From Acidovorax radicis (GTDB lineage Bacteria > Pseudomonadota > Gammaproteobacteria > Burkholderiales > Burkholderiaceae_C), in assembly GCF_020510705.1 (NCBI RefSeq), contig NZ_CP075184.1, positions 4,612,501-4,676,500 on the forward strand: a stretch of 64,000 nt of DNA. The letters run 5' to 3'. Shown here piece after piece: positions 920 to 44,856 of the stretch. Numbering within the stretch: the stretch's first letter is position 1; the number at the start of each line of letters is the position of its first letter. Made by a program: the position numbers and the translations under genes. The notes beneath the pieces are model-generated. The model saw nothing but the letters and a program-made list of their open reading frames with translations, made no database searches and was not told the DNA's origin.

Positions 920-979
920 AATTTGCTATATTATTTATAGCTGCTAGCGCTTACCCATCAAGCGCCGGGTGCCAAAAAT
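920..979. repeat. CTAG-type palindromic repeat, intergenic copy 1
   Basis: This copy of a palindromic repeat lies between kup and benE. It shows TATAGCTGCTAGCGCTTA followed by CATCAAGCGC, which are the two arms of the core CTAGCGCTT / AAGCGCTAG; the right arm is decayed after AAGCGC. Other copies in the window are at 8695, 9521, 13293, 15751, 25911, 27546, 29425, 44064 and 44421. Confidence 0.75.
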
Positions 980-990
980 GCTTGAAATCA

Positions 991-2859
991 TCAGATCTCG
1001 ATCTTGGAACCCAACTCCACCACGGCATTGTTCGGAAGGTGCAAAAAGTCTGCCGCTCCGCTGGCGTTGTGGTGCATCTGGGCGAACAGTTTTTCGCGCC
1101 AGGGCGCCATGCCACTGCCAATGCTCGGAATGACGGTGTCGCGTGACAGGAAATAGCTGGTGGTCATGGGTTCAAGCTCGCAGCCGCGACCACGCAACAG
1201 TTCCAGCGCGCGGGGCACGTCGGGGTCGTTCTTGAAGCCGTAGTGAATGACCACTTGCCAGCAGTCGTGTCCGAGCGGTTGGACCTGTAACCGCTTGTCC
1301 AACCCGATCCAGGGCGTCTCGTGGTTGTGCACCGTGACAAACAGATTTTGCTGGTGCAGCACCTTGTTGTGTTTGAGGTTGTGCAGCAATGCGTTGGGCA
1401 CCGAGCCGGTCTCTGCGGTCAGAAAAACCGCCGTGCCATCCACACGTGTCGGCGGGCTGATGAAGACGGACTCCAGGAAGTCCTTCAGATCAATGGCATC
1501 GGCGCGCAGCTTGCTATTGAGCAGCCTGCGGCCTTCCTTCCACGTCATCATGAGCGAGAACACGATGCCGCCGATCATGAGCGGGAACCAGCCGCCCTGG
1601 AACAGCTTGAGCAGGTTGGAGGTGAAAAATGCCAGATCAACCACAAAGAAGCAGCCCGTGGCGGCAATACACAACACAAGCGGATAGTGCCACCCATAAC
1701 GGATGACAAAAAACGTCAGGATGGTGGTGATCAGCATGTCAAGCGTGACGGCAATGCCGTAGGCCGCCGCCAGATTGCTGGACGTGCGGAACGTCACCAC
1801 AGCCAGCACGATGGCAACAAACAGCCCCCAGTTAACCAGTGGCATATATATCTGCCCGGTGTCGCGCACACTGGTGTGCTGGATGTTCAGGCGGGGCAGG
1901 TAACCCAGCTGAATCACCTGTTTGGTCACGCTGAACGCCCCCGTGATCAGCGCCTGCGATGCGATCACCGTGGCCATGGTGGCCATGATGACCAGGGGCA
2001 CGAGCGCCCAATCGGGCGCCATCATGTAAAACGGATTCTTGACGGCTTCGGGCCGGGCCAGCAGCAGCGCCCCTTGCCCAAAATAATTGAGCGTGAGCGA
2101 GGGCATCGCCACCCCAAACCATGCCAGGCGGATAGGCCGCTTGCCGAAGTGGCCAAGGTCTGCGTACAGCGCTTCAGCCCCCGTGACGCACAACACCACG
2201 GCGCCAAGAATGATGAAGCTGACACCGGGGTTGAACCAGATGAACTTGGCAGCATGGTGCGGGCTCAGTGCCCACAGAATTTCTGGGTGCCCGACGATGT
2301 GCGACACACCAAGCAGCGCAATAGTGATGAACCATGCAAGGGTAATGGGGCCAAAGAATTTGCCGATGCCCCCTGTTCCCCGCTTTTGCACCACAAACAG
2401 GCAAAACAGTACCACCAGGGTGATGGGTATCACGTACTGCTTGAAATGGGGAGATACCACCTCCAGCCCTTCCACAGCGGACAAGACTGAAATGGCGGGG
2501 GTGATGACGCCGTCGCCGTAAAAAAGCGAGGTGCCGAAGATGCCAATCCCCAGCAGCCAACCGCGCAGCCGGGGCTTTTCTTTGACGGCCTGCGACGCCA
2601 GGGCCAGCATCGCAATCAGGCCACCTTCGCCGTTGTTGTCTGCACGCAGCACCAACACCACGTACTTCAGCGACACGATGATCGTGAGCGTCCAGAAAAA
2701 AATCGAGAGGATGCCGTAAATGTTGGTGGGTGTGAACGGCACATGGCCTGATCCGAACACTTCCTTGACGGCATACAGCACGCTGGTGCCGATATCGCCA
2801 TACACAACACCGATGGCTCCCAGCGTGAGCGCCGCGAGCGATGACTTGGAGCTTTGCAC
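991..2859 (-). CDS. kup: Low-affinity potassium transporter Kup
   Basis: Kup is a K+/H+ symporter of the inner membrane (KUP/HAK/KT family). The 622-residue product has the usual length. The N-terminal signature [20 protein letters not shown] lies near residues 13-32, followed by about twelve membrane segments and a soluble C-terminal domain from about residue 450. [14 protein letters not shown] near residue 115 and the family's GTG and [14 protein letters not shown] motifs are visible. The ATG at 2857-2859 is the natural start because it directly precedes the conserved N-terminus. gshA lies upstream on the same strand, 166 bp away, and trkH/trkA follow farther upstream, making this a K+ uptake neighbourhood. 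Confidence 0.97.
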
Positions 2860-3025
2860 TGACCACCCCCGCGCAGTGTGCTGGGCGGGGTTCCGTTACT
2901 TTTGGGAACGCTATTGTGCGCTCACGCCCCCCGCACGATTGGAGGGAAATTACTATGTTGCACCGCAACAACTGCGCTTGGCAAGCCACCCCGGGCGTGG
3001 CAGGCGCGCCACGCCCCAAAACGGA

Positions 3026-4321
3026 TCAGTCGTACACCTCGGCATCGGGGTTGGTGGCTTCGAGCTCGTAACTGGCCGCCAGCATGGCAAGGCGGGCCAC
3101 CACACCATACATATAAAACCGGTTCGGGCCACTCACACCGGGCCGCACGCCCGGCTGGGGCATGTGCGTGCTGTGCTCGAAGGCCAGCGGCACAAAACTG
3201 GCGCCCGGGGCGTTGAGGTTTTCGTCATCGCCACGCTCGGCATGCATGCGATAAAACCCACCCACCACGTAGCGATCCATCATGTAGACCACCGGCTCGG
3301 CCACGGCCTCGTGCACGCGCTCCTGGGTGAGCACACCTTCCTGGATGATGAGATCGTGGACCGGCTGGCCGTCTTTGATGACAGCCATCTTGTTGCGGGT
3401 CTTACGGTTCGCGGCGTCCAGCTCCTTGGCGTCGCGCACGGTCATGATGCCCATGCCGTAGGTGCCGTTGTTGGCTTTTACGATCACGAACGGCTTTTCG
3501 TTAATGCCGTATTCCTTGTATTTGCGGCGCACCTTGGTCAGCACCGCGTCCACCGTGGTCTGCAGCTTGTCCATGCCTGTGCCTTCAGTGAAGTCCACTT
3601 CATCGCACTGGCTATACAGGGGGTTGATGAGCCAGGGGTCGATGCCCAGCATCTTGCCAAAGCGCTTGGCCACTTCTTCATAGTTCTTGAAGTGGGTGCT
3701 TTTGCGGCGCACCGTCCAGCCGGCGTGCAACGGGGGCAACAAGTACTGCTCGTGAATATCTTCGAGAATCCCGGGAGGCCCTGCCGAGAGATCGTTATTG
3801 AGCAAGATGGTGCAGGGATCAAAATCCTTGAGCCCCAGGCGGCGCTTGGTGCGCACCACCGGTTCGAGCGTGACCGAATCGCCGTTGGGCAGGTCGATGC
3901 GCGTTGGCTTTTTGATGTCGGGGCTGATCGATCCCACACGCACATTCAGACCCGCCATGTTGAAGATGCGCTGCAGCTGCACCACATTGGACAGGTAGAA
4001 GGTGTTGCGCGTGTGGTTCTCCGGGATGATCAGCAGATTGCGCGCCTCAGGGCAGATCTTCTCGATGGCCGCCATGGCGGCCTGCACGGCCAGGGGAAGC
4101 ATCTCTTTGGTGAGATTGTTCCAACCGCCCGGGAACAGGTTGGTGTCTACCGGCGCCAGCTTGAACCCTGCGTTGCGGATGTCCACCGAGGTATAGAACG
4201 GCGGCGTGTGCTCCATCCACTCCAGGCGAAACCAGCGCTCGATGGCGGGCATCGAGTCCAGAATGCGCTGTTCGAGTTCGTTGATCGGCCCCGTGAGGGC
4301 CGTGATGAGATGCGGAACCAT
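3026..4321 (-). CDS. gshA: Glutamate-cysteine ligase, ATP-grasp (betaproteobacterial) type
   Basis: The gene encodes the first enzyme of glutathione synthesis, joining glutamate and cysteine with ATP in the cytoplasm. The 431-residue product belongs to the glutamate-cysteine ligase type first described from Acidithiobacillus and common in Burkholderiales; it is unrelated in sequence to the E. coli enzyme. Conserved stretches include PVDTNLFPGGWNNL near residue 55, LIIPENHTRNTFYL and VKANNGTYGMGIMTV near residue 280. I chose the ATG at 4319-4321 (MVPHLITALTGP); an AAGGG ribosome-binding site lies 7 nt upstream and the longer frame adds a non-conserved 21-residue tail. gshB is not in the window. 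kup lies downstream on the same strand. Confidence 0.93.
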   Translation of the reverse strand: MVPHLITALTGPINELEQRILDSMPAIERWFRLEWMEHTPPFYTSVDIRNAGFKLAPVDTNLFPGGWNNLTKEMLPLAVQAAMAAIEKICPEARNLLIIPENHTRNTFYLSNVVQLQRIFNMAGLNVRVGSISPDIKKPTRIDLPNGDSVTLEPVVRTKRRLGLKDFDPCTILLNNDLSAGPPGILEDIHEQYLLPPLHAGWTVRRKSTHFKNYEEVAKRFGKMLGIDPWLINPLYSQCDEVDFTEGTGMDKLQTTVDAVLTKVRRKYKEYGINEKPFVIVKANNGTYGMGIMTVRDAKELDAANRKTRNKMAVIKDGQPVHDLIIQEGVLTQERVHEAVAEPVVYMMDRYVVGGFYRMHAERGDDENLNAPGASFVPLAFEHSTHMPQPGVRPGVSGPNRFYMYGVVARLAMLAASYELEATNPDAEVYD

Positions 4322-7512: not shown

Positions 7513-8793
7513 TCAGGCGCGCACTTCACCTTCACCCAGCACCACGTACTTGAGCGAGGTGAGGCCCTCGATGCCCACCGGGCCACGCGCGTGGAACTTG
7601 TCGGTGCTGATGCCAATTTCTGCCCCCAGCCCAAATTCAAAGCCGTCGGCAAAGCGCGTGCTGGCGTTCACCATCACGCTGGCCGAGTCCACCTCGCGCA
7701 GGAACTGCTGGGCGTGCATGTGGTCGCGCGTCAGGATGGCATCGGTGTGGTGGCTGGAATAGTGGTTGATGTGCGCAATGGCCTCATCCACGCCCGCCAC
7801 CACCTTCACGCTGATGATGGGGGCCAGGTATTCCTCGCTCCAGTCCTGCTCCGTCGCGGCGACCAATTTGGCACCCGCCACCGATTGCAGAATCGCCAAC
7901 GACTCGGGGCAGCCGCGCATCTCCACGCCCTTGGCGGCATACACCGCGCCGATCTGGGGCAAAAACGCGGCCGCCACGCCGCGCGCTACCAGCAGGCCTT
8001 CGCTTGCGTTGCAGGGGCTGTATTTGTGGGTCTTGGCGTTGTCGGCCACCTTCACGGCCATGGCGATGTCGCAGGGGTCGTCCACATAGGTGTGGCAGTT
8101 GCCGTCCAGGTGCTTGATGACGGGCACCTTGGCATCGCGGCTGATGCGCTCGATCAGCCCCTTGCCGCCGCGGGGGATGATCACATCCACAAACTGGGGC
8201 ATGGCAATGAGCTGGCCCACGGCCTCGCGGTCGGTGGTCTGCACCAGCTGCACCGCGTCTTGCGGCAGGCCCGCCTCGGCCAGCGCCTGCTGCACCAGCT
8301 TGGCGAGGGCCCGGTTGGAATCAATGGCCTCGGAGCCGCCGCGCAAGATGCAGGCGTTGCCGCTCTTGATGCTGAGGCTGGCGGCCTCGATGGTGACGTT
8401 GGGGCGGCTCTCGTAAATCATGCCAAACACGCCAATCGGCACCCGCATCTGCCCCACGCGGATGCCGCTGGGCTGCTGCTTCATGCCAATGATCTCGCCA
8501 ATCACATCGGCCATTGCGGCCAGTTGCTCGCAGCCCTGGGCGCAGGTCTCCAGCACCTTGGGGGTGAGCTTCAAACGGTCCACCATCGGCTCGGCCAAAC
8601 CCGCAGCGCGCGCGCGCTCCAGATCGCGGGCGTTGTCCACCTGCAGCGCCTCGGTCTGCTCGCGCAGCAAACGGGCCAGGGCCAGCAATGCTTTGTTTTT
8701 GATAGCTGCCGGCGCTTTCGCCATCAGCGCAGAGGCCGTTTTTGCCTGGAGACCGAGGGTGTGCGTGTATTCAGCGACATTGAGGGCGTTCAT
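7513..8793 (-). CDS. proA: Gamma-glutamyl phosphate reductase ProA
   Basis: ProA makes glutamate-5-semialdehyde from gamma-glutamyl phosphate with NADPH, the second step of proline synthesis. The 426 residues fit the family; visible landmarks are [16 protein letters not shown] near residue 120, RGGSEAI near 150, [14 protein letters not shown] near 225 and the catalytic-cysteine region [13 protein letters not shown] near 260. The ATG at 8791-8793 ([14 protein letters not shown]) is preferred over one eight codons upstream because it matches the family N-terminus. Codons 17-33 carry sequence resembling the palindromic repeat found elsewhere in the window, without changing the apparent length. 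proB is not here. Confidence 0.96.
8695..8745. repeat. CTAG-type palindromic repeat, decayed copy inside proA
   Basis: The bases TTTTTGATAGCTGCCGGCGC at the left and AGCGCAGAGGCCGTTTTTG at the right match the outer arms and flanks of the intergenic copies. The copy lies in the proA frame (codons 17-33) and is read in the same orientation and phase as the purK copy. The central CTAG is lost in both arms. Alignment from memory with ProA N-termini suggests no length change, so chance similarity or a compositional effect cannot be excluded. Confidence 0.5.
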
Positions 8794-8859
8794 CCTGCGA
8801 TTTTGCCGCAGTTGCATTTACCCTTGCGGCCTGCCCCTGTTGCACACCACCGCACCACC

Positions 8860-9483: not shown

Positions 9484-9520
9484 CGGGGGTGCGACAGGGG
9501 GAGGAAAGCTTAGGCAATCA

Positions 9521-9573
9521 CTACCAATTTCATAGCTGCTAGCGCTTATTCCACAAGCGCAAGCGGCCAAAAC
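9521..9573. repeat. CTAG-type palindromic repeat, intergenic copy
   Basis: The sequence shows ATAGCTGCTAGCGCTTATT and then CAAGCGCAAGCGGCCAAAA, the two arms of the common core. It lies at the 3' end of the FAD oxidoreductase gene. Confidence 0.75.
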
Positions 9574-9577
9574 CCCC

Positions 9578-10945
9578 TCAAACCTCCGCCCGCCCCAACC
9601 ACTTCTCCCGCGCAATATAAGCCCGCACCCCCAGCCCCATGAACGGCTGCGGCGGCATGCGCGTCGGCCCACCCAACGCCAAGGCATGGGCCAGCAAGGG
9701 GTGGTCCTGCCCCAGCGCCAAATCCGCCGCCAACGCCCCCAGCGCAGTGAACTTCACCACCCCCGCCCCATTGCACCCGGCGACGCCATGCACCTGCGGC
9801 GCCAGCCGCCCCCAGCGCGGCGCGCCATTGCGGGTGATGGCAATCGAGCCTTCCCAAAAATGCTCCAACGCCACATCGGCCAGCTGCGGAAAACGCGCAG
9901 CAAACACGGCCGCATGCTCACGCCGCACCCGCTCGCGCACCGCTGGGCTGACGCGGAAATGCGGCGCGTATTCAAAGCCCTGGCGCACCAGAATGCGGTG
10001 GTCGTCCGTGTAGCGCAGCGTGGCCCCCATCACGGCGCTGGCGGGCGTCACGCCCCAGCCCTCGGGGGCGCCCAGGCGGCTGCGCTGCTCGGGCGTGAGC
10101 GGGGCCGTGAGCGACCCAAAGGTGACCAGCGGAAACGTCTCCGCCCCCCAGGCGCTGCCAAACAACCCCAGCTGCTGCGCAAAACCATTGGCCGCCAGCA
10201 ATAACTGCGGCGCACGCACGCTGCCCTGCGGCGTGTGGGCCACCACCTTGCCGCCTGACCAATCCAGCCGCTGCACCGGCGTTTGCTCGTGCAGGGTGAC
10301 GTTGTCGGGCAGCGCATCGGCCAGGCCCCGGCACAGTGCGGCGGGGTTGAGCAGCACGGTGCCCGGCGTGTAGAGCCCGGCGGCAAAGTAGCGGGTGCCC
10401 AGGCGCGCGGCCAAGGCGTTGCGGTCCAGCAGCTCGTGCGGTGCACCCAGGGCGCGCAGCTCCTGAACATGGCGCTGCAGCGTGCGCTCGGCGGCGGGCG
10501 ATACGGCGCAGTGGTACTTGCCTGCACGCCGCCATTGGCAGTCGATGCGGTGCTGCGCCACCAGCCGCTCCAAGTCGGTCATGCCCGCCGTGAGCAAGGC
10601 CTGGTAGTGCGCGGCCTGGCGCAGTTCTTCGAGCGAACTGCCGATGTTGTGCGGCACATCGATGGCAAAGCCCGAGTTGCGGCCCGAGGCGTTGTTGCCC
10701 ACGGTGCCAGCGTCCACCAGCACGATGTGGGCGTGGGGGCTCAGCTCGGCCAGGCGGCGCGCGGCGGCCAGGCCCGCAAAGCCCGCGCCCAGCACCAACC
10801 AGTCGGCCGCCACATCGCCCTGCAGCGCAGGGCGCGGCGTGCGCGAGGGCAGGATGGCGGACCAGCCGTTGGTGGCGTCGTCGTTGGGCAAGCGCAATGG
10901 CATGGAGCCCTGCGGCGACCGCAGGGAGGCATCAGCGCCCGCCAT
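9578..10945 (-). CDS. FAD-dependent amine/amino-acid oxidoreductase (DAO family)
   Basis: The 455-residue product is a DAO-family FAD enzyme of the type that oxidises amino acids or amines (compare OrdL/PuuB-like proteins). The dinucleotide-binding motif WLVLGAGFAGLAAARRLAEL lies near residues 47-66 and is followed by an acidic-end strand (HIVLVDAG) and the flavin-contacting NASGRNSGFAID. Near the C-terminus GVAGCNGAGVVKFTALG is the second FAD contact. The ATG at 10943-10945 overlaps the holA stop by one base, which suggests translational coupling. An arginase gene lies on the other side of holA, so a role in arginine or polyamine breakdown is possible but is an inference from position only. 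Confidence 0.85.
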   Translation of the reverse strand: MAGADASLRSPQGSMPLRLPNDDATNGWSAILPSRTPRPALQGDVAADWLVLGAGFAGLAAARRLAELSPHAHIVLVDAGTVGNNASGRNSGFAIDVPHNIGSSLEELRQAAHYQALLTAGMTDLERLVAQHRIDCQWRRAGKYHCAVSPAAERTLQRHVQELRALGAPHELLDRNALAARLGTRYFAAGLYTPGTVLLNPAALCRGLADALPDNVTLHEQTPVQRLDWSGGKVVAHTPQGSVRAPQLLLAANGFAQQLGLFGSAWGAETFPLVTFGSLTAPLTPEQRSRLGAPEGWGVTPASAVMGATLRYTDDHRILVRQGFEYAPHFRVSPAVRERVRREHAAVFAARFPQLADVALEHFWEGSIAITRNGAPRWGRLAPQVHGVAGCNGAGVVKFTALGALAADLALGQDHPLLAHALALGGPTRMPPQPFMGLGVRAYIAREKWLGRAEV

Positions 10946-13292: not shown

Positions 13293-13340
13293 AATTACTA
13301 TCAAATAGATAGCTGTCAGCGCTTATTTATAAATCGCTAG
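13293..13340. repeat. CTAG-type palindromic repeat, left part, broken by the IS element
   Basis: ACTATCAAATAGATAGCTGT CAGCGCTTATTTATAAATCGCTAG reads as the left side of the repeat, ending in the CTAG at 13337-13340. The continuation AGAGCCTATT resumes at 14530 after the second CTAG. The element therefore supplied the insertion site for the IS. Confidence 0.75.
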
Positions 13341-14527
13341 GGAAGCTCTTCACGAATCGGTTCTGGCTATGTCACAGCGATGCCTGAACTAAAACAGCAC
13401 TCGCTTTGAGTAATGAGGCGTGCGCAGCGCACCCAGCAGGCGTTTGGCGAGGGCCATTGCCCCTATATCGGAGGCTTTACGCCCCCTGCACGCGCACCTG
13501 CCCCATGCAGGCCAGCAACTTGTGCCTTGCCATCCACAGATTGCCCAGCGCAAACAGCGTGACGATCTGCGCCGTGTTCTTCATGAGCCCCCGGTAGCGC
13601 ACCTTCACGTACCCGAACTGCTGCTTGAGCACCCGAAACGGGTGCTCCACCTTGGCCCGGATGCTGGCCTTGGTGCGTTCAAGTTGGTCGATCAGCGCAT
13701 CCACAGGCTTGTTTTTGTCCAAAGCCCGGCGCAACCCCGGGCGCATGGCTACATGCCAGCGCACGTTCTTGTTGGCATCGGGCCGCTTGTCCACTCCTTG
13801 GTAGCCCGCATCGCCAAAGGCATCCGTTTCTTGCCCGTGCAGCAGGCTGTTGGCTTCTATCACGTCGTTCACATTGCCACTGGTGCCGCGCACGCTGTGC
13901 ACCAGGCCTGAATCCGCATCCACGCCAATGTGAGCCTTCATGCCAAAGTACCACTCGTTGCCCTTCTTGCTTTGATGCATCTCGGGGTCTCGTGCCTTGC
14001 CTTCATTCTTGGTGGACGTCGGCGCCGCAATCAGCGTGGCATCCACCACCGTGCCTGCTTTGAGTTGCAGCCCTTTGGCTTGCAGCAGGGCATTGACCGT
14101 AGCGAGGATCTGATCGGCCAGTTTGTGGCGCTCCAGCAGATGCCGAAAACGCAGGATGCTCGATTCACTGGGAATGTGTTCGTCCCAGTGAGACAGGCCG
14201 GCAAAGTCCCGAAAGGCTGGCACGTCGTGCAGTGCCTCTTCCATGGCTGGGTCGCTAAGCTTGAACCACTGCTGCATGAAATGGATACGCAGCAGGGTCT
14301 GCACCGCAAAGGGCTGCTGGCCCCGGCGTCCGATCTCTGGGGCGTAGGGCTCAATGAGCGAGACCAACTCGGCCCAGGGCACCACCAACTCCATCGCATC
14401 AAGGAACTCGCGCTTGCGTGTGCGCTTGGTGGTATTGCTCAGGCCCAGGCTGCTTTGCTTCATGGCCTTATTGTCTCGGCTTCAAGCCTTCGTAAGCACA
14501 TTACGCAGGGATTTGTGCAGAGAATCC
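13341..14527 (-). mobile_element. Complete IS5-family insertion sequence (1187 bp)
   Basis: Terminal inverted repeats are at 13341-13358 (GGAAGCTCTTCACGAATC) and 14510-14527 (reverse complement GGATTCTCTGCACAAATC), 14 of 18 bases matching. CTAG is found on both flanks (13337-13340 and 14528-14531) and is the 4-bp target duplication expected for the IS5 subgroup. The element carries one intact transposase gene, so it may be active. It sits in a copy of the CTAG-type palindromic repeat. I cannot name the IS from memory. Confidence 0.9.
13477..14463 (-). CDS. IS5-family transposase
   Basis: The 328-residue product is a DDE transposase of the IS5 family. The N-terminal region (LVSLIEPYAPEIGRRGQQP) and LLRIHFMQQWFKLSDPAMEEAL are typical of the family's DUF772 domain. 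The catalytic residues appear as TVVDATLIAAP near residue 140, GDAGYQG near 220 and the C-terminal signature YVKVRYRGLMKN after VEHPFRVLKQQFG. No frameshift or internal stop is seen, so the enzyme looks complete. Transcription is leftward, away from lptE. Confidence 0.95.
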   Translation of the reverse strand: MKQSSLGLSNTTKRTRKREFLDAMELVVPWAELVSLIEPYAPEIGRRGQQPFAVQTLLRIHFMQQWFKLSDPAMEEALHDVPAFRDFAGLSHWDEHIPSESSILRFRHLLERHKLADQILATVNALLQAKGLQLKAGTVVDATLIAAPTSTKNEGKARDPEMHQSKKGNEWYFGMKAHIGVDADSGLVHSVRGTSGNVNDVIEANSLLHGQETDAFGDAGYQGVDKRPDANKNVRWHVAMRPGLRRALDKNKPVDALIDQLERTKASIRAKVEHPFRVLKQQFGYVKVRYRGLMKNTAQIVTLFALGNLWMARHKLLACMGQVRVQGA

Positions 14528-14721: not shown

Positions 14722-15231
14722 TTACGGCGCCAACTTGGCCACGGCAAGCCGCCGCAGCAATTGCTGCACGATGTCGGTGCGCATCGTGCGGTACAAGAGC
14801 GCTTCTTCGGCTTCTTTGGCCAGGGCGATGGTTTCGTTGTAGCTGATGTCGCGCTCCTGCAGGATCTCCGTCTCGGGGATGAGCTCCACCCCGGTGGGGG
14901 TGCGCAGGCGAAACTTCACGCGCAGGCGCAGCTGCAGTTCGCGCACCTGGCCCGAGGCGTTGAGCCCCACCACCACGCGCTCTTGCTGCTCCTGAATCAG
15001 ATCCATGATGGTCTGCGCGGTGGTCATGGTGGCCGGGTCGCGCAGCACCCGCAGTTTGCTGGTGGAGCCTTCGAGCGTGCGCTGCAGCTCACGCGCCAGC
15101 AGCGAGGTGGTGGGCGCGGCAATGTAGAGCGACTCAAATGCGAACTCCGGCACACCACGCAGGCGAAAACCGCAGGCAGACAAAAGAGCCACAGGGGCCA
15201 GGGACAGCAGGGTGCGCCGGTGCATGATCAC
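14722..15231 (-). CDS. lptE: LPS-assembly lipoprotein LptE
   Basis: LptE is the outer-membrane lipoprotein that plugs the LptD barrel and helps place lipopolysaccharide on the cell surface. The 169-residue product has a lipoprotein signal with lipobox LLSAC followed by GFRLRG, a hallmark of LptE. The GTG at 15229-15231 overlaps the leuS stop codon by four bases, which suggests coupling; an ATG two codons downstream is an alternative. The gene is the last of a leuS-lptE unit; the normally following holA is displaced 2.7 kb away. Confidence 0.9.
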
Positions 15232-17921
15232 ACCACCACGTTCACAAGACGGCCGGGCACCACGATCACGCGTTTAGGCGCTGCGCCTGCTGCATGGGAG
15301 GTGAACGCCTCGCTGGCCAGGGCCATACGCTCGATCTCGGCCTTGTCAGCCTGCGCAGGCACCTGAATGGAACCACGCAGCTTGCCGTTGACCTGCAGCA
15401 TCAGTTCGATCTCGTCTTGCACCAGCGCGCCGGCATCGACCTTCGGCCAGGCCGCGTCAAGCAGGTCACCGAGGTGGTCTGCATAGCCCAGCTCGCTCCA
15501 CAGGCTGTGCGCCACGTGCGGTGTGGCGGGGTAGAGCACGCGCAGCAGGATGCCGAAGCCTTCGATGAGGGCCACTTGCGCGCCCGCTGTGTCGGTGGCT
15601 TTGAAGTCTTCCAGCGCGTTGATCATCTTCATCGCGCCCGAGACCACGGTGTTGTACTGCATGCGCTGGTAGTCGTAGTCCACCTGCTTGAGCACGTTGT
15701 GGATCTCGAGGCGCAAGGCCTTGGCCTCTTTGCCAAAATCCACATCTTTCAGGGCGCTAGCGCTTATTACGCTTGCGTTAGTAGCTCCCATATCCATAGC
15801 ACAGAGTTTGACGCCAAAGTTCCATACACGGCGCAGGAAGCGGTAGCTGCCTTCCACCGCCGCATCGTTCCACTCCAGCGTGGCCTCGGGCGGGGCGGTG
15901 AACATGGTGTACAGGCGGGCGGTGTCGGCGCCGTACTTCTCGATCAGGTCCTGCGGGTCCACGCCGTTGTTCTTGGACTTGGACATGGTGCCCACGCCCT
16001 CATAGTCAATGGGCGTGCCCACGGGCAACATGCCGTCGCCGCTGGTGGCTTCGTTCTTCAGCTTGGCGCCGATGATCTTGCCGCCTTCATCGAGCACATG
16101 CTCCACATCGTGCGGCCAGAAGTAGTCCTTGCCGCCCTTGGCGGTGCGGCGGCTGTAGATGTGGTTGAGTACCATGCCCTGCGTGAGCAGCTTGGTGAAG
16201 GGCTCGTCGACCTTGACCAAACCGAGATCGCGCATCACCTTGGTCCAGAAGCGGGCGTACAGCAGGTGCAGGATGGCGTGCTCGATGCCGCCGATGTACT
16301 GGTCCATCGGCATCCAGTAATCCGCGCCGCCAGCCACCATCGCGTCGGCATTCTTGGGGTCGCAATACCGCATGAAGTACCACGAGCTGTCCACGAAGGT
16401 ATCCATGGTGTCCGTCTCGCGGCGCGCGGCCTTGCCGCACACGGGGCATGTCACGCCGGCATGAAAGCCCTCGTGTTTGTGCAGCGGGTTACCGGACCCG
16501 TCGGGCACGCAGTCGGTGGGCAGCACCACGGGCAGGTCTTTTTCAGGCACCGGCACGGCGCCGTGCTCGTCGCAATGGATGATGGGGATAGGCGTGCCCC
16601 AGTAGCGCTGGCGCGACACGCCCCAGTCGCGCAACCGCCAGGTGGTCTTGAGCTCGCCCAGGCCCTTTTCGCCCAGCGCATGCGCCACCGCAGCCACCGC
16701 ATCCTTATAGGGCAGACCGCTGAAACTGTCGGAGTTGACGGTGACGCCACGCTGCTTGTCGCCGTACCAGTCGTTCCACTGGTGGTAATCGAAGGTCTCC
16801 CCATCGACCAGCACCACCTGTTTGATGTCGATGCCGTACTTGAGGGCAAACGCAAAGTCACGTTCGTCGTGCGCGGGCACGCCCATCACGGCGCCGTCGC
16901 CATAGCCCATCAGCACATAGTTGCCGACCCACACCTGCACCTTTTCGCCAGTGAGCGGGTGGGTGACGAACAAGCCCGTGGGCACACCCTTCTTTTCTTG
17001 CGTGGCCAGCTCGGCCTCGGTGGTGCCACCGCTCTTGCATTCTTCGATGAAGGCGGCGAGCTGCGGGTTGGTTTTGGCGGCGTGGGCGGCCAAGGGGTGC
17101 TCGGGCGCCACGGCGCAGAAGGTCACGCCCATGATGGTGTCGGCACGCGTGGTGAACACGTACATCTTGCCGTCGCCAATCAGCGCACCGTCGTCACCAC
17201 GAATGTCATGGGGGAACGCAAAGCGCACGCCTTCACTCTTGCCGATCCAGTTTTCCTGCATCAGCTTCACGCGCTCGGGCCAGCCGGGCAGCTTGTCACC
17301 GGTGACGAAGTCGAGCAGCTCTTCAGCGTAGTCGGTGATCTTGAGGTAATAGCCGGGGATCTCGCGCTTTTCCACGGTGGCGCCGGTGCGCCAGCCCTTG
17401 CCGTCAATCACCTGCTCGTTGGCCAGCACCGTCTGGTCCACCGGATCCCAGTTCACGACCTGGGTCTTGCGGTAGGCAATGCCTTTTTCCAGCATCTTGA
17501 GGAACAGCCACTGGTTCCACTTGTAGTACGTGGGGTCGCAGGTGGCGACTTCGCGGCTCCAGTCGATGGCCAGGCCCATGGCCTGCATCTGCTTTTTCAT
17601 GTACGCGATGTTTTCGTACGTCCACTTCGCGGGTGGCACGCCATTCTTCAGCGCCGCGTTTTCGGCGGGCAGGCCAAACGCATCCCAGCCCATGGGCATC
17701 AACACGTTGTGGCCGTTCATGCGCAGGTAACGCGTGAGCATGTCGTTGATGGTGTAGTTGCGCACATGGCCCATGTGCAGCTTGCCGCTGGGGTAGGGCA
17801 GCATCGAGCAGGCGTAGAACTTCTTCTTGTTCGCGTCTTCCGTCACGCGGTAGGCGTCGGTGGCGGTCCAGTGGTCGTGCGCTGCGCGTTCGACGTCTTG
17901 GGGAGAATATTTGTCTTGCAT
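15228..17921 (-). CDS. leuS: Leucyl-tRNA synthetase
   Basis: LeuS charges tRNA-Leu with leucine. The 897-residue product begins [18 protein letters not shown] and carries the HIGH-type motif [12 protein letters not shown] near residues 40-51, the editing domain in the middle and the KMSKS loop as [13 protein letters not shown]. The ATG at 17919-17921 was chosen because the frame upstream is not conserved. Around codons 708-724 the DNA contains a full CTAG-type palindromic repeat read in frame as part of a variable stretch of the C-terminal domain ([14 protein letters not shown]). exbD lies 148 bp upstream, and lptE overlaps the stop. Confidence 0.97.
15751..15800. repeat. CTAG-type palindromic repeat inside leuS
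   Basis: The plus strand reads GGCGCTAGCGCTTATTACGC followed by TTGCGTTAGTAGC. The left arm is perfect; the right arm has two changes. It occupies leuS codons 708-724 in frame, on the same orientation and reading phase as the copies in ybbN and mtnN, so that the core AGCGCT is read as Ser-Ala. Confidence 0.75.
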
Positions 17922-18069
17922 GGGAACTCGGAGGTGACAGAAGTGGGCAGCCGCAGGGCTGCGCTGCGCAGATTCTAGGCGGTCGTGCGCCCCAGCCCGC
18001 GTGGTACTGGCACCAAACCCCAGGCCAAAGGGTGCCCCCTGCCGGGCGCATGGCGCATTCCGCGCAAGA

Positions 18070-25631: not shown

Positions 25632-26540
25632 TCAGCTCAGCACCACGCTCGACAGGCGACGGCGGTAGGTGGCGACCACCGGGTCTTCCGGCGGGATCTG
25701 GCCTTCTGCCACCTTGGGTTTGGGCTTGTCGATGATTTCGAGGATGGCCACATAGGTCTTGCGCGCAGCCTCTTCGCCCCAAGCCTTGTCGCGCATGAGG
25801 ATTTCAAGGAGTTCATCCATGGCATCCGTCCAGCGCTGGCCCGCCATGAGCCAGCGCGCGCGGGCATAGCGGGTGCCAAAGTCACGTTTGTTGGCTGCAA
25901 TTTTTGCATCAAATACGGCTTCAGCGCTTTCACTATAAGCGCTAACAGCTACGAAATCAATAGCATCCATCCAGGCCTTCAACGCCCCCAGGCGGCGCGA
26001 GGCCAGGGCTTTGGCGATCACCGGGGCAAAGGCCACTTTGGCATCGTCCTCACGGCCGAGCTGCAGCAGCAGCTTGACGTAGTCAAAACGTGCATCGTCG
26101 TTGGAGGGATCGGTGACCACGGCGTGCTGCAGCTTTTCCAGCGCAGTGGTGGTGTCGCCATCGGCCAACGCCTCCAGGGCCTGTTCTTCCTCGGCGTTGG
26201 CCTCCAGCACGTCGGCCGTGGGCACATGTTTGTCGAGAAACTCGCGCACCTGGCCTTCGGGCAGCGCTCCCATGAAACCATCCACAGGTTGGCCGTTCAT
26301 GAGCAGCACACAGGTAGGGATGCTGCGGATGCCGAACATGCCCGCCAGCTGCTGCTCTTGGTCGGAGTCGATCTTCACCAGCTTGAAGCGGCCTTCGTAG
26401 GCAACCTCCAACTTCTCCAGCACCGGGCCCAGCGACTTGCAGGGGCCACACCAGGGCGCCCAAAAATCCACCAGCACAGGCACGTCGGTAGAGGCGGCGA
26501 TCACCTCGGCTTCAAAATTTTCTATGGTGACATCGATCAT
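25632..26540 (-). CDS. ybbN: Thioredoxin-like co-chaperone with tetratricopeptide repeats (YbbN/CnoX family)
   Basis: The 302-residue product has an N-terminal thioredoxin domain with the active site WAPWCGPCK (Cys31, Cys34) and a helical C-terminal half with tetratricopeptide-like repeats. The family includes E. coli CnoX, which hands oxidised proteins to chaperones. The CGPC pair is intact, so redox activity is possible. The ATG at 26538-26540 precedes IDVTIENFEAEV, the normal start. Codons 193-210 hold a CTAG-type palindromic repeat read in frame (DFVAVSAYSESAEAVF) in the linker between helices. The lipoprotein gene follows by 14 bp. Confidence 0.93.
   Translation of the reverse strand: MIDVTIENFEAEVIAASTDVPVLVDFWAPWCGPCKSLGPVLEKLEVAYEGRFKLVKIDSDQEQQLAGMFGIRSIPTCVLLMNGQPVDGFMGALPEGQVREFLDKHVPTADVLEANAEEEQALEALADGDTTTALEKLQHAVVTDPSNDDARFDYVKLLLQLGREDDAKVAFAPVIAKALASRRLGALKAWMDAIDFVAVSAYSESAEAVFDAKIAANKRDFGTRYARARWLMAGQRWTDAMDELLEILMRDKAWGEEAARKTYVAILEIIDKPKPKVAEGQIPPEDPVVATYRRRLSSVVLS
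25911..25964. repeat. CTAG-type palindromic repeat inside ybbN
   Basis: The plus strand shows GGCTTCAGCGCTTTCACT and ATAAGCGCTAACAGCTACG, followed by AAATCAATAGC. Both arms match intergenic copies, including the outer AGCT and ATAG flanks. The copy is read on the minus strand in the ybbN frame, in the same phase as the leuS and mtnN copies. Confidence 0.8.
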
Positions 26541-26899
26541 GTTCAGTCCCGGTGGTGCGGCGTGAGGCGCGAGGCGCCACACGCCAATCAATGGATCAGC
26601 CCGTTGGTCATCATGGATGAATCAGGCCGTACCGCAACGCAGGCGGCCGGGTGGCCACCACGGTTGTGGCGCAGGTTCAGCGCGGATTCTCCAGCAATTT
26701 CATCACCCTGCGTGGTGCGGGTGTGTAGGCGATGGCCCCGGATTCCCCGCGCGCAGGCCCACGCTAGCGCAGCGTGCGCAGCGTGCGCGGCAGCGCGCGG
26801 GTGCGCCGGCTGTAGTAGCCGGTTAACACCCGCCTCGGCCACACGGCCACCACAATGGCAACGCACCGTTTTCCCTCACAACCACACCAGGAGACACAC
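26541..26899. other. 359-bp divergent intergenic region between ybbN and the DJ-1/PfpI gene
   Basis: It holds the promoters of two divergent genes, but no clear -35/-10 pair. A tandem GCGCAGCGT repeat occurs near 26765-26786 within a C/G-rich stretch. A frame on the minus strand at 26588-26866 looks open, but its composition is that of shadow frames and it lacks a ribosome-binding site; I do not call it. Confidence 0.4.
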
Positions 26900-27481: not shown

Positions 27482-27545
27482 ACCCTCCGCCCGGTAGCGC
27501 CAGCGCCGACCCTGGCGCTGTGACACACAAAAGTGGGTAAAAACA

Positions 27546-27595
27546 GCATGCAGCGCTTACTGGACAAGCGCTACAAGCTATCATTTTTGATAAAA
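27546..27595. repeat. CTAG-type palindromic repeat, intergenic copy
   Basis: GCAGCGCTTACTGGACAAGC and GCTACAAGCTATCATTTTTG carry the two arms, with CTAG changed in both. It lies between the DJ-1/PfpI gene and the ribbon-helix-helix gene. Confidence 0.7.
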
Positions 27596-28738: not shown

Positions 28739-29911
28739 ATGAAAAAATTCACCGATCAACCCCTTCTGCCCGGTAGCACGCTGGGCGTGCTCGGCGGTGG
28801 CCAGTTGGGCCGCATGTTTGTGCACCAGGCCCAGGCCATGGGCTATTTCACCGCCGTGCTCGACGCCGACCCCACCAGCCCCGCCGGGCTGGTGAGCCAT
28901 CACCACATCCAGACGGGCTACGAAGACCCGCAAGGCCTGGCCGAGCTGGCCCGCCTGTCGGACGCAGTGACCACCGAGTTCGAGAACGTGCCCGCCGCTG
29001 CACTGGCCACGCTGGCCGCGCAGCGCCCCGTGTCGCCAGCGGCCAGCGCCGTGTCTGTGGCGCAAGACCGAGCGCGGGAAAAGGCCCACTTTGTGGCCTG
29101 CGGCGTGCCTTGCGCGCCGTATGCCGTGGTCGAAACCGCCGAGCAGCTGGCTGCCGTTTCAGCCGATCTGCTCCCCGGCATCCTCAAGACCGCCCGCATG
29201 GGCTATGACGGCAAGGGCCAGGCGCGTGTGAAGGCGCCCGCCGAGCTGGCCGCCGCCTGGGATTCCGTGGGCCAAGTGCCCTGCGTGCTGGAGAAGATGC
29301 TGCCCCTGCAGCTCGAATGCTCCGTCATCGTGGCGCGCAGTGCCGATGGCGCCATGGTGCACCTGCCCGTGCAGCGCAACCTGCACCGCGACGGCATCCT
29401 GGCCGTGACCGAGGTTTATGAAGGAAATTTGCCTCTAGCGCTTGCTACACAAGCGGTAGCCGCTGCGAAATCTGTAGCAGAAGGCCTGCAATACGTGGGC
29501 GTGCTGTGCGTGGAATTCTTCGTGCTGCAGGACGGCAGCCTGGTGGTCAACGAGATCGCCCCGCGCCCGCACAACAGTGGCCACTACAGCCAGAACGCCT
29601 GCGACGTGTCGCAGTTCGAGCTGCAGGTGCGCACCATGGCTCGCCTGCCGCTGACGCAGCCGCGCCAGCACAGCCCCGCAGTCATGCTCAACCTGTTGGG
29701 CGACCTGTGGTTTGCGCATGGCGATGCCGAGCAGACACCCCCCTGGGCCGAGGTGCTGGCCCTGCCCGGCACCCACCTGCACCTGTACGGCAAGCGCGAG
29801 GCCAAGCGCGGCCGCAAGATGGGCCACCTCAACGTGACCGGTTCCACGCCCGATGGCGTGCGCGCCATCGCCCTGCGCGCTGCCGCGCTGCTTGGCATTG
29901 CCCCGTTTTGA
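28739..29911 (+). CDS. purK: N5-carboxyaminoimidazole ribonucleotide synthase PurK
   Basis: PurK, an ATP-grasp enzyme, carboxylates AIR with bicarbonate. The 390-residue product starts MKKFTDQPLLPGSTLGVLGG and has GQLGRMFVHQAQAMGY, KTARMGYDGKGQARV near residue 150, CVEFFVLQDGSLVVNEIAPR near 260 and HNSGHYSQNACDVSQFE. Codons 229-248 carry a CTAG-type palindromic repeat read in frame (NLPLALATQAVAAAKSVA) just before the conserved GLQYVGVLCVEFF. Length appears unchanged. tsaC follows after 13 bp. Confidence 0.97.
   Translation: MKKFTDQPLLPGSTLGVLGGGQLGRMFVHQAQAMGYFTAVLDADPTSPAGLVSHHHIQTGYEDPQGLAELARLSDAVTTEFENVPAAALATLAAQRPVSPAASAVSVAQDRAREKAHFVACGVPCAPYAVVETAEQLAAVSADLLPGILKTARMGYDGKGQARVKAPAELAAAWDSVGQVPCVLEKMLPLQLECSVIVARSADGAMVHLPVQRNLHRDGILAVTEVYEGNLPLALATQAVAAAKSVAEGLQYVGVLCVEFFVLQDGSLVVNEIAPRPHNSGHYSQNACDVSQFELQVRTMARLPLTQPRQHSPAVMLNLLGDLWFAHGDAEQTPPWAEVLALPGTHLHLYGKREAKRGRKMGHLNVTGSTPDGVRAIALRAAALLGIAPF
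29425..29480. repeat. CTAG-type palindromic repeat inside purK
   Basis: GCCTCTAGCGCTTGCTACAC and AAGCGGTAGCCGCTGCGAAA are the two arms with their flanks. The left CTAGCGCTT is perfect. The phase (CTA GCG CTT, Leu-Ala-Leu) differs from that in leuS, ybbN and mtnN because the repeat lies in the other orientation. Confidence 0.8.
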
Positions 29912-40543: not shown

Positions 40544-40560
40544 CCATCTCCCACTGTCCC

Positions 40561-41274: not shown

Positions 41275-41279
41275 CCAGC

Positions 41280-41774: not shown

Positions 41775-41815
41775 CACAAGCGCCCCACCTGCCACCCCAA
41801 CACGTCCCTGCCTGT

Positions 41816-42628: not shown

Positions 42629-42731
42629 GGCCAAGAACGTGTTCACGATCCAAGGGCTGAGACGTCTTGTGCAATGACATAATCCGCCCTTTGCTGACAG
42701 CTTAATTTGACGGAGACAGCTCCTTGGAAAC

Positions 42732-42782
42732 CTACCCGAGTTGGTAGCTTTCGGCTCCCCGGCCTGCCGTGGGGTTGAAAGC
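42732..42782 (+). promoter_or_regulatory. Structured leader RNA upstream of corA (two abutting hairpins)
   Basis: Within the 201-bp gap before corA, CTACC (42732-42736) pairs with GGTAG (42743-42747) around CGAGTT. Right after it CTTTC (42748-42752) pairs with GAAAG (42777-42781) and CCCC (42757-42760) with GGGG (42771-42774). The two stems could stack. They end 47 nt before the ATG. Known Mg2+ leaders or riboswitches that I remember do not match, so this is a candidate for an unrecognised control element. Confidence 0.5.
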
Positions 42783-42829
42783 ACCCCGCCCCCCGCACTG
42801 CAGACGCCACCAACCAAGGGAGTGAGTCC

Positions 42830-43816
42830 ATGCTCAACATCTTTTCGCTTGCCAACGGCCGGCTGTTCCAGGAAGAAATCGAGTCCCTGGAGGAGCTGAC
42901 CCGGTTCCAGCCCATCTGGGTGGACCTGGAAGCCCCCACGCTCGAAGAAAAGCGCTGGATCAAGCAGCACTACGGCCTGTCCATCCCCGAGGATGCGATG
43001 GATGAAGACATCGAGGAATCCGCCCGCTTCTACGAAGAAGACAACGGCGAGCTGCACATCCGCAGCGACTTTCTGATCGATGACGACGAAGACCCCCGCT
43101 CGGTGCGCGTGGCCTTCATCCTGAACCAGCACAACACCAACCTCAAGAGCCGGGGCGTGCTGTTCTCTATCCACGATGAAGACGTGCCGGTGTTCCGGCT
43201 GCTGCGCATGCGTGCCCGGCGCGCGCCGGGGCTCATCGAAGACGCCAAGGAAGTGCTGCTCAAGCTGTTCGACGCCGACGCGGAATATTCGGCCGACACG
43301 CTTGAGCGCATCTATGACGAGCTGGAAAAGGTGAGCACGCAGGTGCTGGCCGGCGACGTGACCGACGCCCGAGCAGGAGAAGTGCTGGCGGCCATCGCAC
43401 GCCAGGAAGACTTGAACGGCCGCATCCGCCGCAATGTGATGGATACGCGCCGCGCCGTGAGCTTCATGATGCGCAGCAAGATGCTCAACGCCGAGCAGTT
43501 CGAGGAAGCACGCCAGATCCTGCGCGACATCGAATCGCTGGACAACCACACCGCCTTTCTGTTCGACAAGATCAACTTCCTGATGGACGCCACGGTCGGT
43601 TTTATCAACATCAACCAGAACAAGATCATCAAGATCTTCTCGGTGGCCAGCGTGGCCCTGCTGCCGCCCACGCTGATCGCCAGCGTCTATGGCATGAACT
43701 TCAAGTTCATGCCCGAGCTCGACTGGTCCCTGGGCTACCCGTACGCGCTGGCGCTGATGGTGGCCAGCGCGCTGGGGCCTATGTGGTACTTCCGCAAGCG
43801 CGGTTGGTTGAAGTAG
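42830..43816 (+). CDS. corA: Magnesium/cobalt transporter CorA
   Basis: CorA is a pentameric Mg2+ channel of the inner membrane. The 328-residue product has a long soluble funnel and, near the C-terminus, two helices with the signature YGMNFKFMPELDW (residues 287-299), which includes the GMN filter. The C-terminus ends with RKRGWLK, typical of the family. The ATG at 42830-42832 has AGGGAGTG upstream. A structured leader precedes it and a G/C-rich hairpin follows the stop by 24 bp. Confidence 0.96.
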   Translation: MLNIFSLANGRLFQEEIESLEELTRFQPIWVDLEAPTLEEKRWIKQHYGLSIPEDAMDEDIEESARFYEEDNGELHIRSDFLIDDDEDPRSVRVAFILNQHNTNLKSRGVLFSIHDEDVPVFRLLRMRARRAPGLIEDAKEVLLKLFDADAEYSADTLERIYDELEKVSTQVLAGDVTDARAGEVLAAIARQEDLNGRIRRNVMDTRRAVSFMMRSKMLNAEQFEEARQILRDIESLDNHTAFLFDKINFLMDATVGFININQNKIIKIFSVASVALLPPTLIASVYGMNFKFMPELDWSLGYPYALALMVASALGPMWYFRKRGWLK

Positions 43817-43817
43817 C

Positions 43818-43880
43818 CCCCCCTGTGGCGCTGCGCGCCGTCCCCCCCGAGGGGGGACGCCTCCAGCGGCCCGGCAGAGC
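43818..43880. repeat. G/C-rich repeat-like sequence after corA, with a perfect hairpin
   Basis: GTCCCCCC (43840-43847) pairs with GGGGGGAC (43851-43858) across CGA. It may help end corA transcription, but no T tract follows. The composition is like the purE-purK spacer. Confidence 0.45.
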
Positions 43881-43985
43881 CGGTTCCGCGGTGGCGCTGG
43901 TATTGGGCGCGCGCCGGTTTCATGGTGCAGTGGTCGAACTTGTAGCCGCTGACGCTATGGCAGATCCCAGGAATCCGAGCCCCTG

Positions 43986-44009
43986 CCCGTTCGGGCTGAG
44001 CGTGTCGAA
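43986..44009 (-). repeat. TTCGACA-type short repeat, copy 2
   Basis: The reverse complement of this 24-bp sequence matches 9460-9483 at 22 positions. It lies between corA and mtnN, which converge. Confidence 0.6.
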
Positions 44010-44063
44010 GCCTTGGGCAAGGCTGGTGATGGGTTCGGCGGCTGTCTCTGCGCAAAAAATGAG

Positions 44064-44120
44064 TCAAATCTGGCTCTAGCGCTTATCCATCAAGCGCTAG
44101 CGGCTATAAATTTGATAGTT
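44064..44120. repeat. CTAG-type palindromic repeat overlapping the 3' end of mtnN
   Basis: CTCTAGCGCTTATCCATCAA and GCGCTAGCGGCTATAAATTT hold two near-perfect arms. The mtnN stop codon and its last five codons lie in the right flank (44104-44120). This is the most regular copy in the window. Confidence 0.85.
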
Positions 44121-44856
44121 TCTGCAGAAATGCCAGCACCATGTGCTCCGCGTAGCGGCTGGCCACCGTCTGCACGAACAAGGGGAAGTCCACGTGCGCC
44201 GCGTCGTCGGCGCGGTCTGAGATGGTTCTGACGGCGGCAAAAGGCACACCATAGTCCAGGCAGACCTGGGCCACGGCAGCGCCTTCCATCTCCACCGCCA
44301 GCACCTCATGCCCGGCGGCACGCAGGTCTTGGCGCAGGCGATCAGACTCCCGCGCGGCCGACACAAACCGGTCGCCGCTGACAACCAGGCCGTGGTGCAC
44401 ACGCGCCGCGGGGTAATTCAAGTCAAAATGGCCTCTAGCGCTTGATACACAAGCGCCAGCAGCTTCCAAAAGATGAGCAGATAGGTGCGCATCGCATGCC
44501 AGGCGAGCGCGCGCATACCCCGGCAGCTCCCAGCGCGCAAACAGCGGCGAGGCGTCCATGTCGTGCTGCAGATAGTCTTGCGCCACCACCACATCGCCCA
44601 CCTGCACCCCTTCGCCCACACCGCCCGCCACGCCCGTGAACACGATGGCGGCAGCGCCAAAGTGCTCCACCAGCGCCGTGGCCGTGGTGGCCGCTGCCAC
44701 CTTGCCAATGCCCGACAGCGCCAGCACCACCGGCTGGCCGTGCAGCATGCCGCGCGTGAAAGTGCGCCCCGCGCGTGCCACCTGTTCGGGGTGCTGCAGA
44801 TGGGCCACCAGGCCCGATTGTTCTTCGGGCAGGGCGCTGAGGATGGCGAAGGTCAT
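44104..44856 (-). CDS. mtnN: 5'-methylthioadenosine/S-adenosylhomocysteine nucleosidase
   Basis: MtnN (Pfs) splits methylthioadenosine and S-adenosylhomocysteine, recycling by-products of methylation, polyamine and autoinducer-2 synthesis. The 250-residue product starts MTFAILSALPEEQSGLVAHL; it has GIGKVAAATTATALVEHFGA, VAGGVGEGVQVGDVVVA and the catalytic region VEMEGAAVAQVCLDYGVPF with RTISDRAD. Codons 129-146 (AAGACVSSARGHF) are a CTAG-type repeat read in frame, and the last codons and stop lie in a second copy. The C-terminus KLSNL is therefore repeat-derived. It is separated from dppA by a terminator. Confidence 0.94.
   Translation of the reverse strand: MTFAILSALPEEQSGLVAHLQHPEQVARAGRTFTRGMLHGQPVVLALSGIGKVAAATTATALVEHFGAAAIVFTGVAGGVGEGVQVGDVVVAQDYLQHDMDASPLFARWELPGYARARLACDAHLSAHLLEAAGACVSSARGHFDLNYPAARVHHGLVVSGDRFVSAARESDRLRQDLRAAGHEVLAVEMEGAAVAQVCLDYGVPFAAVRTISDRADDAAHVDFPLFVQTVASRYAEHMVLAFLQKLSNL
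44421..44471. repeat. CTAG-type palindromic repeat inside mtnN
   Basis: GGCCTCTAGCGCTTGATACA and AAGCGCCAGCAGCTTCCAAA are the arms with flanks. The left arm is perfect. It lies 300 bp from the copy at the mtnN stop and is read on the minus strand in the same phase as the leuS and ybbN copies. Confidence 0.8.

Follow-up and report, generated by a model that had tools for sequence, protein, structure and literature searches.

Sequence-specific uptake of DNA has, according to the parts of the literature available to us, been described in two bacterial families (PMC1939737, PMC3630211), namely the Neisseriaceae with their DNA uptake sequences (DUS) and the Pasteurellaceae with their uptake signal sequences (USS). 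Here we describe a repeated motif in Acidovorax radicis, which was noticed in a stretch of 64,000 nucleotides (positions 4,612,501 to 4,676,500 of contig NZ_CP075184.1, assembly GCF_020510705.1; this whole stretch is called the window in the following). An earlier reading of the letters alone, referred to here as the sequence-only reading, had listed ten copies of a palindromic repeat in the window, five of them in frame within leuS, ybbN, purK, mtnN and proA. We consider it very probable that the copies represent a motif that is not inserted, that is acted upon in trans and that forms dialects between species.

The motif shares several features with DUS and USS, as these are described in the available sections of the two papers (PMC3630211, PMC1939737). 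There are many genic as well as intergenic copies, they are evenly spaced, and some genomes of the family have none. Dialects exist around an invariant trinucleotide, which is CTG in DUS and AGC in the Acidovorax motif, and an origin by point mutation in existing sequence, rather than by insertion, has been proposed. The motif differs in being about 65 bp long, sparser, palindromic in some dialects and known from sequence alone, and in that many DUS are argued to arise by recombination (PMC2397512, available in part).

Other described repeats resemble the motif in single aspects. The repetitive extragenic palindromic (REP) sequences and their REPIN forms, which go along with REP-associated tyrosine transposases (RAYT), are also palindromic and present in hundreds of copies, and the Acidovorax genome carries a Y1-type transposase gene, a class that we take to be RAYT-like. 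REPINs are inserted, depend on their hairpin and lie outside genes, whereas the Acidovorax motif shows no insertion gap, is hardly paired, has 52 of 221 copies in genes and is uncorrelated with the transposase gene. The palindromic elements of Rickettsia are likewise read in frame within proteins. They lengthen these proteins, whereas PurK and ProA are not lengthened by the Acidovorax motif. BRE is a betaproteobacterial repeat with some copies in coding sequences, but it is 75-91 bp long with a mean GC content of 69%, and it is set apart from the motif by its composition alone (PMC3110155, available in part).

Two spaced word pairs match parts of the motif, GCTTAT(N)5AAGCG from Acidovorax ebreus (114 copies, 5 genic) and ATAGCT(N)22CAAAAG from Polaromonas naphthalenivorans (125 copies, 18 genic), and the bare motif is in this form already published, though unexplained; the available part of that paper gives the pairs no role and contains no analysis of reading frames, dialects or orthologues (PMC5217627). 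A literature search, which covered mostly titles and the beginnings of abstracts, yielded no prior account of an in-frame origin by substitution, of dialects or of a role of the motif, and among the papers listed none deals with uptake sequences in this group beyond these pairs. Of 30 papers containing words of the motif, the 12 that were listed look unrelated by title, and a paper on GTAG/CGTC repeats contained none of six Comamonadaceae terms.

Copies of the motif and their placement

All ten copies noted in the window proved to be real, with scores of 43.7-78.2 bits. A core pattern with up to three mismatches recovers nine of the ten listed sites and has no match in 100 dinucleotide shuffles, and the tenth copy (at 8695, in proA) scores 43.7 bits with the final weight matrix. 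The unit is larger than the approximately 50 bp first assigned to it, since conservation extends over about 65 bp, roughly TTGCTATtAAATTgATAGCTGCTAGCGCTTattgaAtAAGCGCTAGAGGCCaaTTT. It consists of a left part TTGCTAT..ATAGC, the core GCTAGCGCTT-N7-AAGCGCTAG and a right part with GGCC and an A/T tract. In the weight matrix the information is spread over this entire length, and a short core of 9-12 bp, as in known uptake sequences, was not found.

The genome is a single contig of 4,995,154 bases, and its closest named PurK relatives are from Acidovorax (92% in Acidovorax sp. GW101-3H11). We examined 1,605,154 bases of it (32%, including 10,000 N), consisting of 60 spaced stretches of 20 kb, the window, and additional ones through which the region from 4.45 to 4.995 Mb is fully covered. 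A matrix of 77 columns finds 220 copies above 16 bits in this sample and none in the same bases reversed without complementing, which bears out the strong excess that the sequence-only reading had proposed to look for and parallels the genome-wide over-representation of DUS and USS. Extrapolation to the whole genome gives about 685 copies, or one per ~7 kb. With a looser pattern, the entire genome has 1075 matches as compared to 259 in the control.

Genes were called with a simple, purpose-written program that misses some of them, and one copy scored as intergenic (own region, 348305) sits in a reading frame by eye. By this calling, 52 of the 221 copies above 14 bits are genic (49 wholly so) and 41 lie at the edges of genes; 73 are found between co-oriented genes, 39 in convergent and 15 in divergent gaps, and one is undetermined. 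Outside genes there are 0.71 copies per kb, versus 0.038 inside, and the convergent gaps amount to 38.6 kb, the divergent ones to 48.5 kb.

The strands and phases of the five in-frame copies of the window were confirmed: those in leuS, ybbN and mtnN lie on the strand of the gene in phase 1, those in purK and proA on the opposite strand in phase 0. Throughout the sample, clustering in these two phases is found as well, with 20 genic copies in the first, 19 in the second and 13 in all others. From the shares of stop-free sequence, 15.8 and 12.4 copies would be expected in the two main phases; in two other phases the expectation is 12.9 and 8.2, but only 2 and 1 were observed (chi-square 40, 5 degrees of freedom, two cells having small expectation). 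Stop codons account for part of the clustering, but not for the avoidance of these two other, largely open phases, which suggests that tolerance of the protein matters too. Genic copies occur both in sense and in antisense.

Over 545 kb, the copies are spaced more evenly than random, 0.9% of random sets being equally even. A clear strand bias that would set one half of the chromosome apart from the other was not seen in the sample, nor was an obvious gradient, and a strand-biased chromosome site is thereby weakened as a candidate.

Probable overwriting of existing sequence

The sequence-only reading had held that the host proteins are not longer at the sites of the motif, as if existing sequence had been overwritten. 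This is clearest for PurK and ProA. At its motif site, PurK is free of gaps in 79 of 80 loci of the family, the remaining one (L078) having four additional residues. As an outgroup, 25 motif-free genomes from other families of the order were used, of which 23 yielded a PurK; the motif scores of these 23 sites are all -42 or lower, and six of them are gap-free, 14 are one residue shorter, one is three shorter and two are three longer. ProA aligns without gaps to PDB 4ghk, and in the 25 outgroup genomes its whole match is between 5 residues shorter and 1 longer than the query, as judged from coordinates and not from a local alignment. We assume that PDB 4izo, 4e4t and 4ghk are from Burkholderia. 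Since the PDB chains come without a stated source organism, the claim about outgroup length rests on the 25 motif-free genomes; the polarity of the change was taken from this length, not from a tree.

LeuS shows no gap in any of the 30 loci that were fetched from 47 genomes of the genus, its own included, and about ten of these are motif-free by eye. In another 30 genomes chosen by their handles (27 of them new) no LeuS is longer, while one is two residues shorter (G581) and two are four shorter (G515 and G576). The respective stretch of YbbN measures 37 residues here and 32-43 in homologues, among which apparently motif-free ones (by eye) are of equal length. For MtnN, a homologue from the same genus that is motif-free by eye (L125) has equal length; the 30 rows displayed for this comparison include a paralogue of 30% identity (L130) and a truncated protein (L129).

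For two of the five genes the lengths also speak against overwriting, because LeuS is here six residues longer at the site than in PDB 6q89 and MtnN about 12 residues longer than in PDB 3eei, such that an old insertion is conceivable for leuS and mtnN. PurK and ProA keep their length, and so does LeuS within the genus and family. Overwriting without insertion is upheld by orthologues and outgroups, most clearly at purK and proA, with mtnN and in part leuS as possible exceptions.

Two of the loci used are peculiar in other ways. In one (L020), identity to the query is 88% for PurK but only 51% for YbbN, as though its ybbN stemmed from a different lineage and had taken the place of the original one. 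The other (L079) is filed as Hymenobacter frigidus, presumably a member of the Bacteroidota, yet carries a purK of the Comamonadaceae type, and is perhaps a contaminated assembly.

Orthologous positions were compared between 545 kb of this genome and 400 kb from each of two relatives, G038 and G004, which by the matrix of this genome hold 79, 53 and 52 copies, respectively. Of the 79 copies, 40 could be mapped to G038, where 14 of the 15 copies in genes and 22 of the 25 outside them are present. Altogether, 239 directional comparisons were mapped, and the copy is absent in 21 of them, representing 19 distinct sites. None of these 21 shows an empty-site gap of 60-85 bp. In 10 of the 11 genic cases the change in length is 0, the other being -12 in a low-complexity stretch, whereas in the ten non-genic cases it ranges from -305 to +852; four of the latter are 101 to 305 bases shorter, where a deletion could have taken in the copy.

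Clean empty sites of the type left by miniature inverted-repeat transposable elements are therefore missing from the three-genome comparison, as are the empty sites in relatives that REP and REPIN insertions would leave, and mobile insertion is weakened as an explanation. At purK, proA and the orthologous sites, the motif appears to arise in place by substitution, as is proposed for DUS and USS, with leuS and mtnN unclear with respect to their PDB relatives. In-frame insertion that lengthens the protein, the hallmark of the Rickettsia elements, was not seen in PurK and ProA, and remains conceivable in MtnN and LeuS.

Dialects, core and distribution among lineages

In G038 and G004, re-estimated matrices find 60 and 55 copies, respectively, and 0 in the reversed control, and they differ from the matrix of the Acidovorax genome studied here at several core columns (smallest p 3e-25 and 1e-23). 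When dialect models were trained solely on non-genic copies (169 from this genome, 34 from G038 and 37 from G004), the genic copies followed them. The copy of this genome is more own-like in 13 of 13 orthologous genic pairs with G004 and in 13 of 14 with G038, the proA copy, which hardly shifts, being the sole exception. Taken one at a time, the genic copies give a less clear picture. Of the 52, 36 fit their own dialect better than that of G004, and 48 better than that of G038; conversely, 2 of 15 genic copies of G004 still fit the dialect of this genome better. Non-genic orthologous pairs follow the dialects in 23 of 25 and 21 of 22 cases, which is circular, as these copies are part of the training set.

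As in DUS and USS, the dialects keep a constant core. The AGC at columns -17 to -15 is retained in 414 of 415 copies (221/221 in this genome, 60/60 in G038, 54/55 in G004 and 79/79 in loci L005-L080); the matrix favours AGC, yet a typical copy would still pass the threshold with one base of it lost. The palindrome, by contrast, looks incidental. In the 221 copies, pairing of its stem columns is close to what independence of the columns would give, with the largest excess at -11/+11 (0.61 versus 0.55 expected, z 2.5) and, in genic copies alone, a slight one at -9/+9 (z 2.1), which is not the pattern of a hairpin kept by compensatory change as in REP and REPIN sequences. Loop columns avoid pairing and carry 0.1-0.6 bits as compared to 1.1-1.8 bits in the arms, and the consensus of G038 is no longer palindromic. 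The 7-base loop (columns -3 to +3) occurs in both orientations relative to the flanks, ATCCATC and GATGGAT, and its mirrored columns are strongly correlated. The likeness to the palindromic elements of Rickettsia, which the sequence-only reading had seen, is not sustained, there being no empty-site gap, no family of recent duplicates and no palindrome that is clearly paired or kept between species.

The distribution of the motif was assessed with a pattern in the dialect of this genome, such that zeros may hide other dialects; matches were added over both strands, and a single site may match twice. Among 260 genomes of the family, 42 have at least 10 matches, 26 have 1-9 and 192 have none (counted by hand, the sum being checked against a tally of 68). 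Contrasts occur within genera, for instance with 191 matches in one genome (G494) and 0 in another (G560). Of 300 genomes of the order, nine have a match, namely five of the nine family members drawn and four others with 1 to 4 matches. The consensus in the same dialect matches 0 of 50,697 phage records and 3 of 72,556 plasmid records.

For the purK site, 80 named loci were compared. Because the site is among the copies counted, only the 25 loci with at least two copies are informative; 24 of these score 16.8 or more at the site, the exception being L078. Three loci have one copy, and the 52 loci without any score 8.0 or less. In 17 motif-bearing genomes, the GC content at third codon positions is 0.32 inside the site and 0.86 outside it, versus 0.77 and 0.82 in 17 motif-free genomes, both sets being hand-picked from 81. 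The sequence-only reading would have been undermined by the same nucleotides in distant genera, and this applies in part, as purK also scores high in other genera, among them Simplicispira, Giesbergeria, Rhodoferax and Polaromonas. The purK site is old and kept, with a spelling that shifts by lineage.

Positions in the window of the ten motif copies and of the reading frames that host them within their coding sequence
Feature	Position	Strand	Score or source
Motif copy just 3' of the kup end	922..988	+	75.6 bits
Motif copy within proA, antisense, near the N-terminus	8687..8753	+	43.7 bits
Motif copy at the 3' edge of a - strand oxidoreductase gene ending at 9578	9517..9583	+	69.7 bits
Intergenic motif copy, flanked by a + strand gene and by a transposase gene of the IS5 type (NCBIfam)	13294..13360	+	51.7 bits
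Motif copy within leuS, sense, phase 1	15735..15801	-	49.2 bits
Motif copy within ybbN, sense, phase 1	25899..25965	-	72.0 bits
Intergenic motif copy	27528..27594	-	53.9 bits
Motif copy within purK, antisense, phase 0	29413..29479	-	57.8 bits
Motif copy at the mtnN 3' end	44054..44120	-	78.2 bits
Motif copy within mtnN, sense, phase 1	44413..44479	-	68.9 bits
proA, glutamate-5-semialdehyde dehydrogenase	7513..8817	-	NCBIfam
leuS, leucine--tRNA ligase	15228..17978	-	NCBIfam
ybbN-type thioredoxin-domain protein (name from the sequence-only reading)	25632..26591	-	Domain match
purK	28739..29911	+	NCBIfam
mtnN, methylthioadenosine/S-adenosylhomocysteine (MTA/SAH) nucleosidase	44104..44856	-	NCBIfam

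Elsewhere in the window (46616-48753), two adjacent - strand reading frames have a 70-base repeat of 76% identity in common and perhaps encode paralogous transporter ATPases.

Processes that may build and keep the motif

Kept positions, change by substitution only, dialects common to copies in and between genes, and the lack of the entire set in some lineages point to a trans-acting, sequence-specific process that would build and keep the ~65-bp motif by base substitution at scattered, long-lived positions. Natural transformation with an uptake bias is proposed here because it is the known process with these marks, as the available parts of the literature describe it (PMC1939737, PMC3630211). 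DNA with a better match to the motif would be taken up more readily and would recombine over the homologous locus, and better-matching alleles would thus spread by molecular drive, like DUS in Neisseria and USS in Pasteurellaceae. With the reader lost or changed, copies would decay or shift to a new dialect, and proteins would carry the motif where alanine/serine-rich or otherwise tolerant segments can be recoded. By analogy with these systems, we give an even chance to the copies being the recognition motif of such a bias, uptake being the process that we infer.

According to the accessible part of one study, Acidovorax temperans and A. facilis are naturally transformable, A. temperans only by DNA of its own species, and DNA uptake in Verminephrobacter is selective and pilus-dependent (PMC4212676). 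A pilin domain of the ComP_DUS type is found in 250 of the 260 family genomes, including the one studied here. It is present in all 42 motif-rich genomes, and the ten genomes without it have no motif match, but this association is weak because nearly all genomes have the domain.

Beside the lengths of LeuS and MtnN, a number of observations weigh against this proposal. Known uptake sequences have cores of 9-12 bp (USS being extended further), and 65 bp is far longer, while the density in Neisseriaceae exceeds one copy per ~7 kb. Sixteen of the 52 genic copies fit the dialect of G004 at least as well as their own, and 8 of 19 genic copies of G038 still fit that of the genome studied here better. 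Locus L078 has four motif copies but a score of -46 at purK, and within the purK site, motif-bearing genomes are no more identical to one another at four-fold sites (0.56) than they are beyond it (0.63). The copies behave nearly as independent draws from the preference matrix, yet with some residual similarity: columns more than 8 apart are partly correlated (26 of 1617 pairs with z>4), and identity to the nearest neighbour exceeds that in shuffles (48.9 versus 46.6 of 68, at maximum 60 versus 52). ComEC occurs in 257 of 260 genomes and ComP-type pilins are near-ubiquitous in the family; as these and the Y1-type gene are nearly universal, gene content does not identify the reader. From what is accessible of the respective papers, many young neisserial DUS are argued to have come by recombination, not point mutation (PMC2397512), and no transformants were obtained with two of the four Acidovorax species tested, A. 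defluvii and A. delafieldii (PMC4212676). Furthermore, the barrier between Acidovorax species may stem from lack of homology.

The motif could instead be the binding site of an intracellular protein that organises or regulates DNA (in the nucleoid, in segregation or in repair), with selection acting on each copy and dialects tracking the protein. We regard this as unlikely, though the sharply position-specific columns, the near-invariant AGC, the scarce arm pairing, the even spacing, the many-or-none distribution and the intergenic enrichment would all suit such a protein. It would, however, require selection at each of ~685 sites, some of which alter essential proteins, the strand bias and gradient of segregation or terminus systems are not apparent in the sample, and a candidate protein was neither found nor looked for.

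Ectopic gene conversion between copies, or single-strand recombineering, possibly with the aid of the RAYT-like transposase, would overwrite without changing length and could account for the dialects and the excess of similar copies as well. The genome has a single Y1-type transposase gene (233 amino acids; L262:1126-1824 on the - strand, G000:C1:4074998-4075696) with a motif copy of 62.7 bits at its 3' end. Such copying nevertheless appears improbable. Copied tracts should homogenise the loop like the arms, which is at odds with their contrasting information content, and of the 12 closest pairs of copies shown, two have a common flank, whereas the flanks of the remaining ones are unrelated and their matches do not exceed 55 of 68. 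Dependence on the transposase, as in REP and REPIN sequences, is likewise weakened, because 249 of 260 genomes of the family have a homologue irrespective of the motif, and two motif-bearing genomes, G564 (105 matches) and G553 (13), have no match to it at E 1e-25. The two flank-sharing pairs (L143 at 10806 and 11549, and in this genome near 4851162 and 4973773), each sharing one side, perhaps reflect a local duplication and a right half shared with a further repeat.

Insertion of a palindromic repeat in an ancestor of the Comamonadaceae, with later differences due to erosion, would fit the purK site common to many genera and the additional residues in MtnN and LeuS. We hold it to be very improbable, given that PurK and ProA keep their lengths in motif-free outgroups, that the motif is essentially confined to this family among the 300 genomes of the order, and that erosion cannot yield concerted dialects in genic copies. 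An element that acts on transcripts, such as an RNA hairpin or a terminator-like structure, for which the palindrome and the higher density in convergent than in divergent gaps might speak, is hardly credible in view of the near absence of arm covariation, the non-palindromic consensus of G038, the genic copies in both orientations and the lack of an Rfam family at gathering score.

Returning to uptake bias, we put forward, tentatively and at somewhat less than even odds, that the Comamonadaceae have a previously unrecognised code of self-recognition, i.e., a multi-part, dialect-forming motif of ~65 bp, several times the length of known uptake cores, under a drive strong enough to recode segments of essential proteins alongside intergenic copies, and that this would represent a further independent origin of sequence-specific uptake or of an equivalent drive. 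If true, this would add another uptake system, in environmental bacteria, and would explain species-specific transformation that was reported without a known signal in the accessible part of that work (PMC4212676). It would also provide a fresh test of molecular drive versus selection in the spread of such sequences. Finally, essential proteins would be recoded in step with the spelling of DNA elsewhere in the genome, which would call for caution when selection is read from codons or residues.

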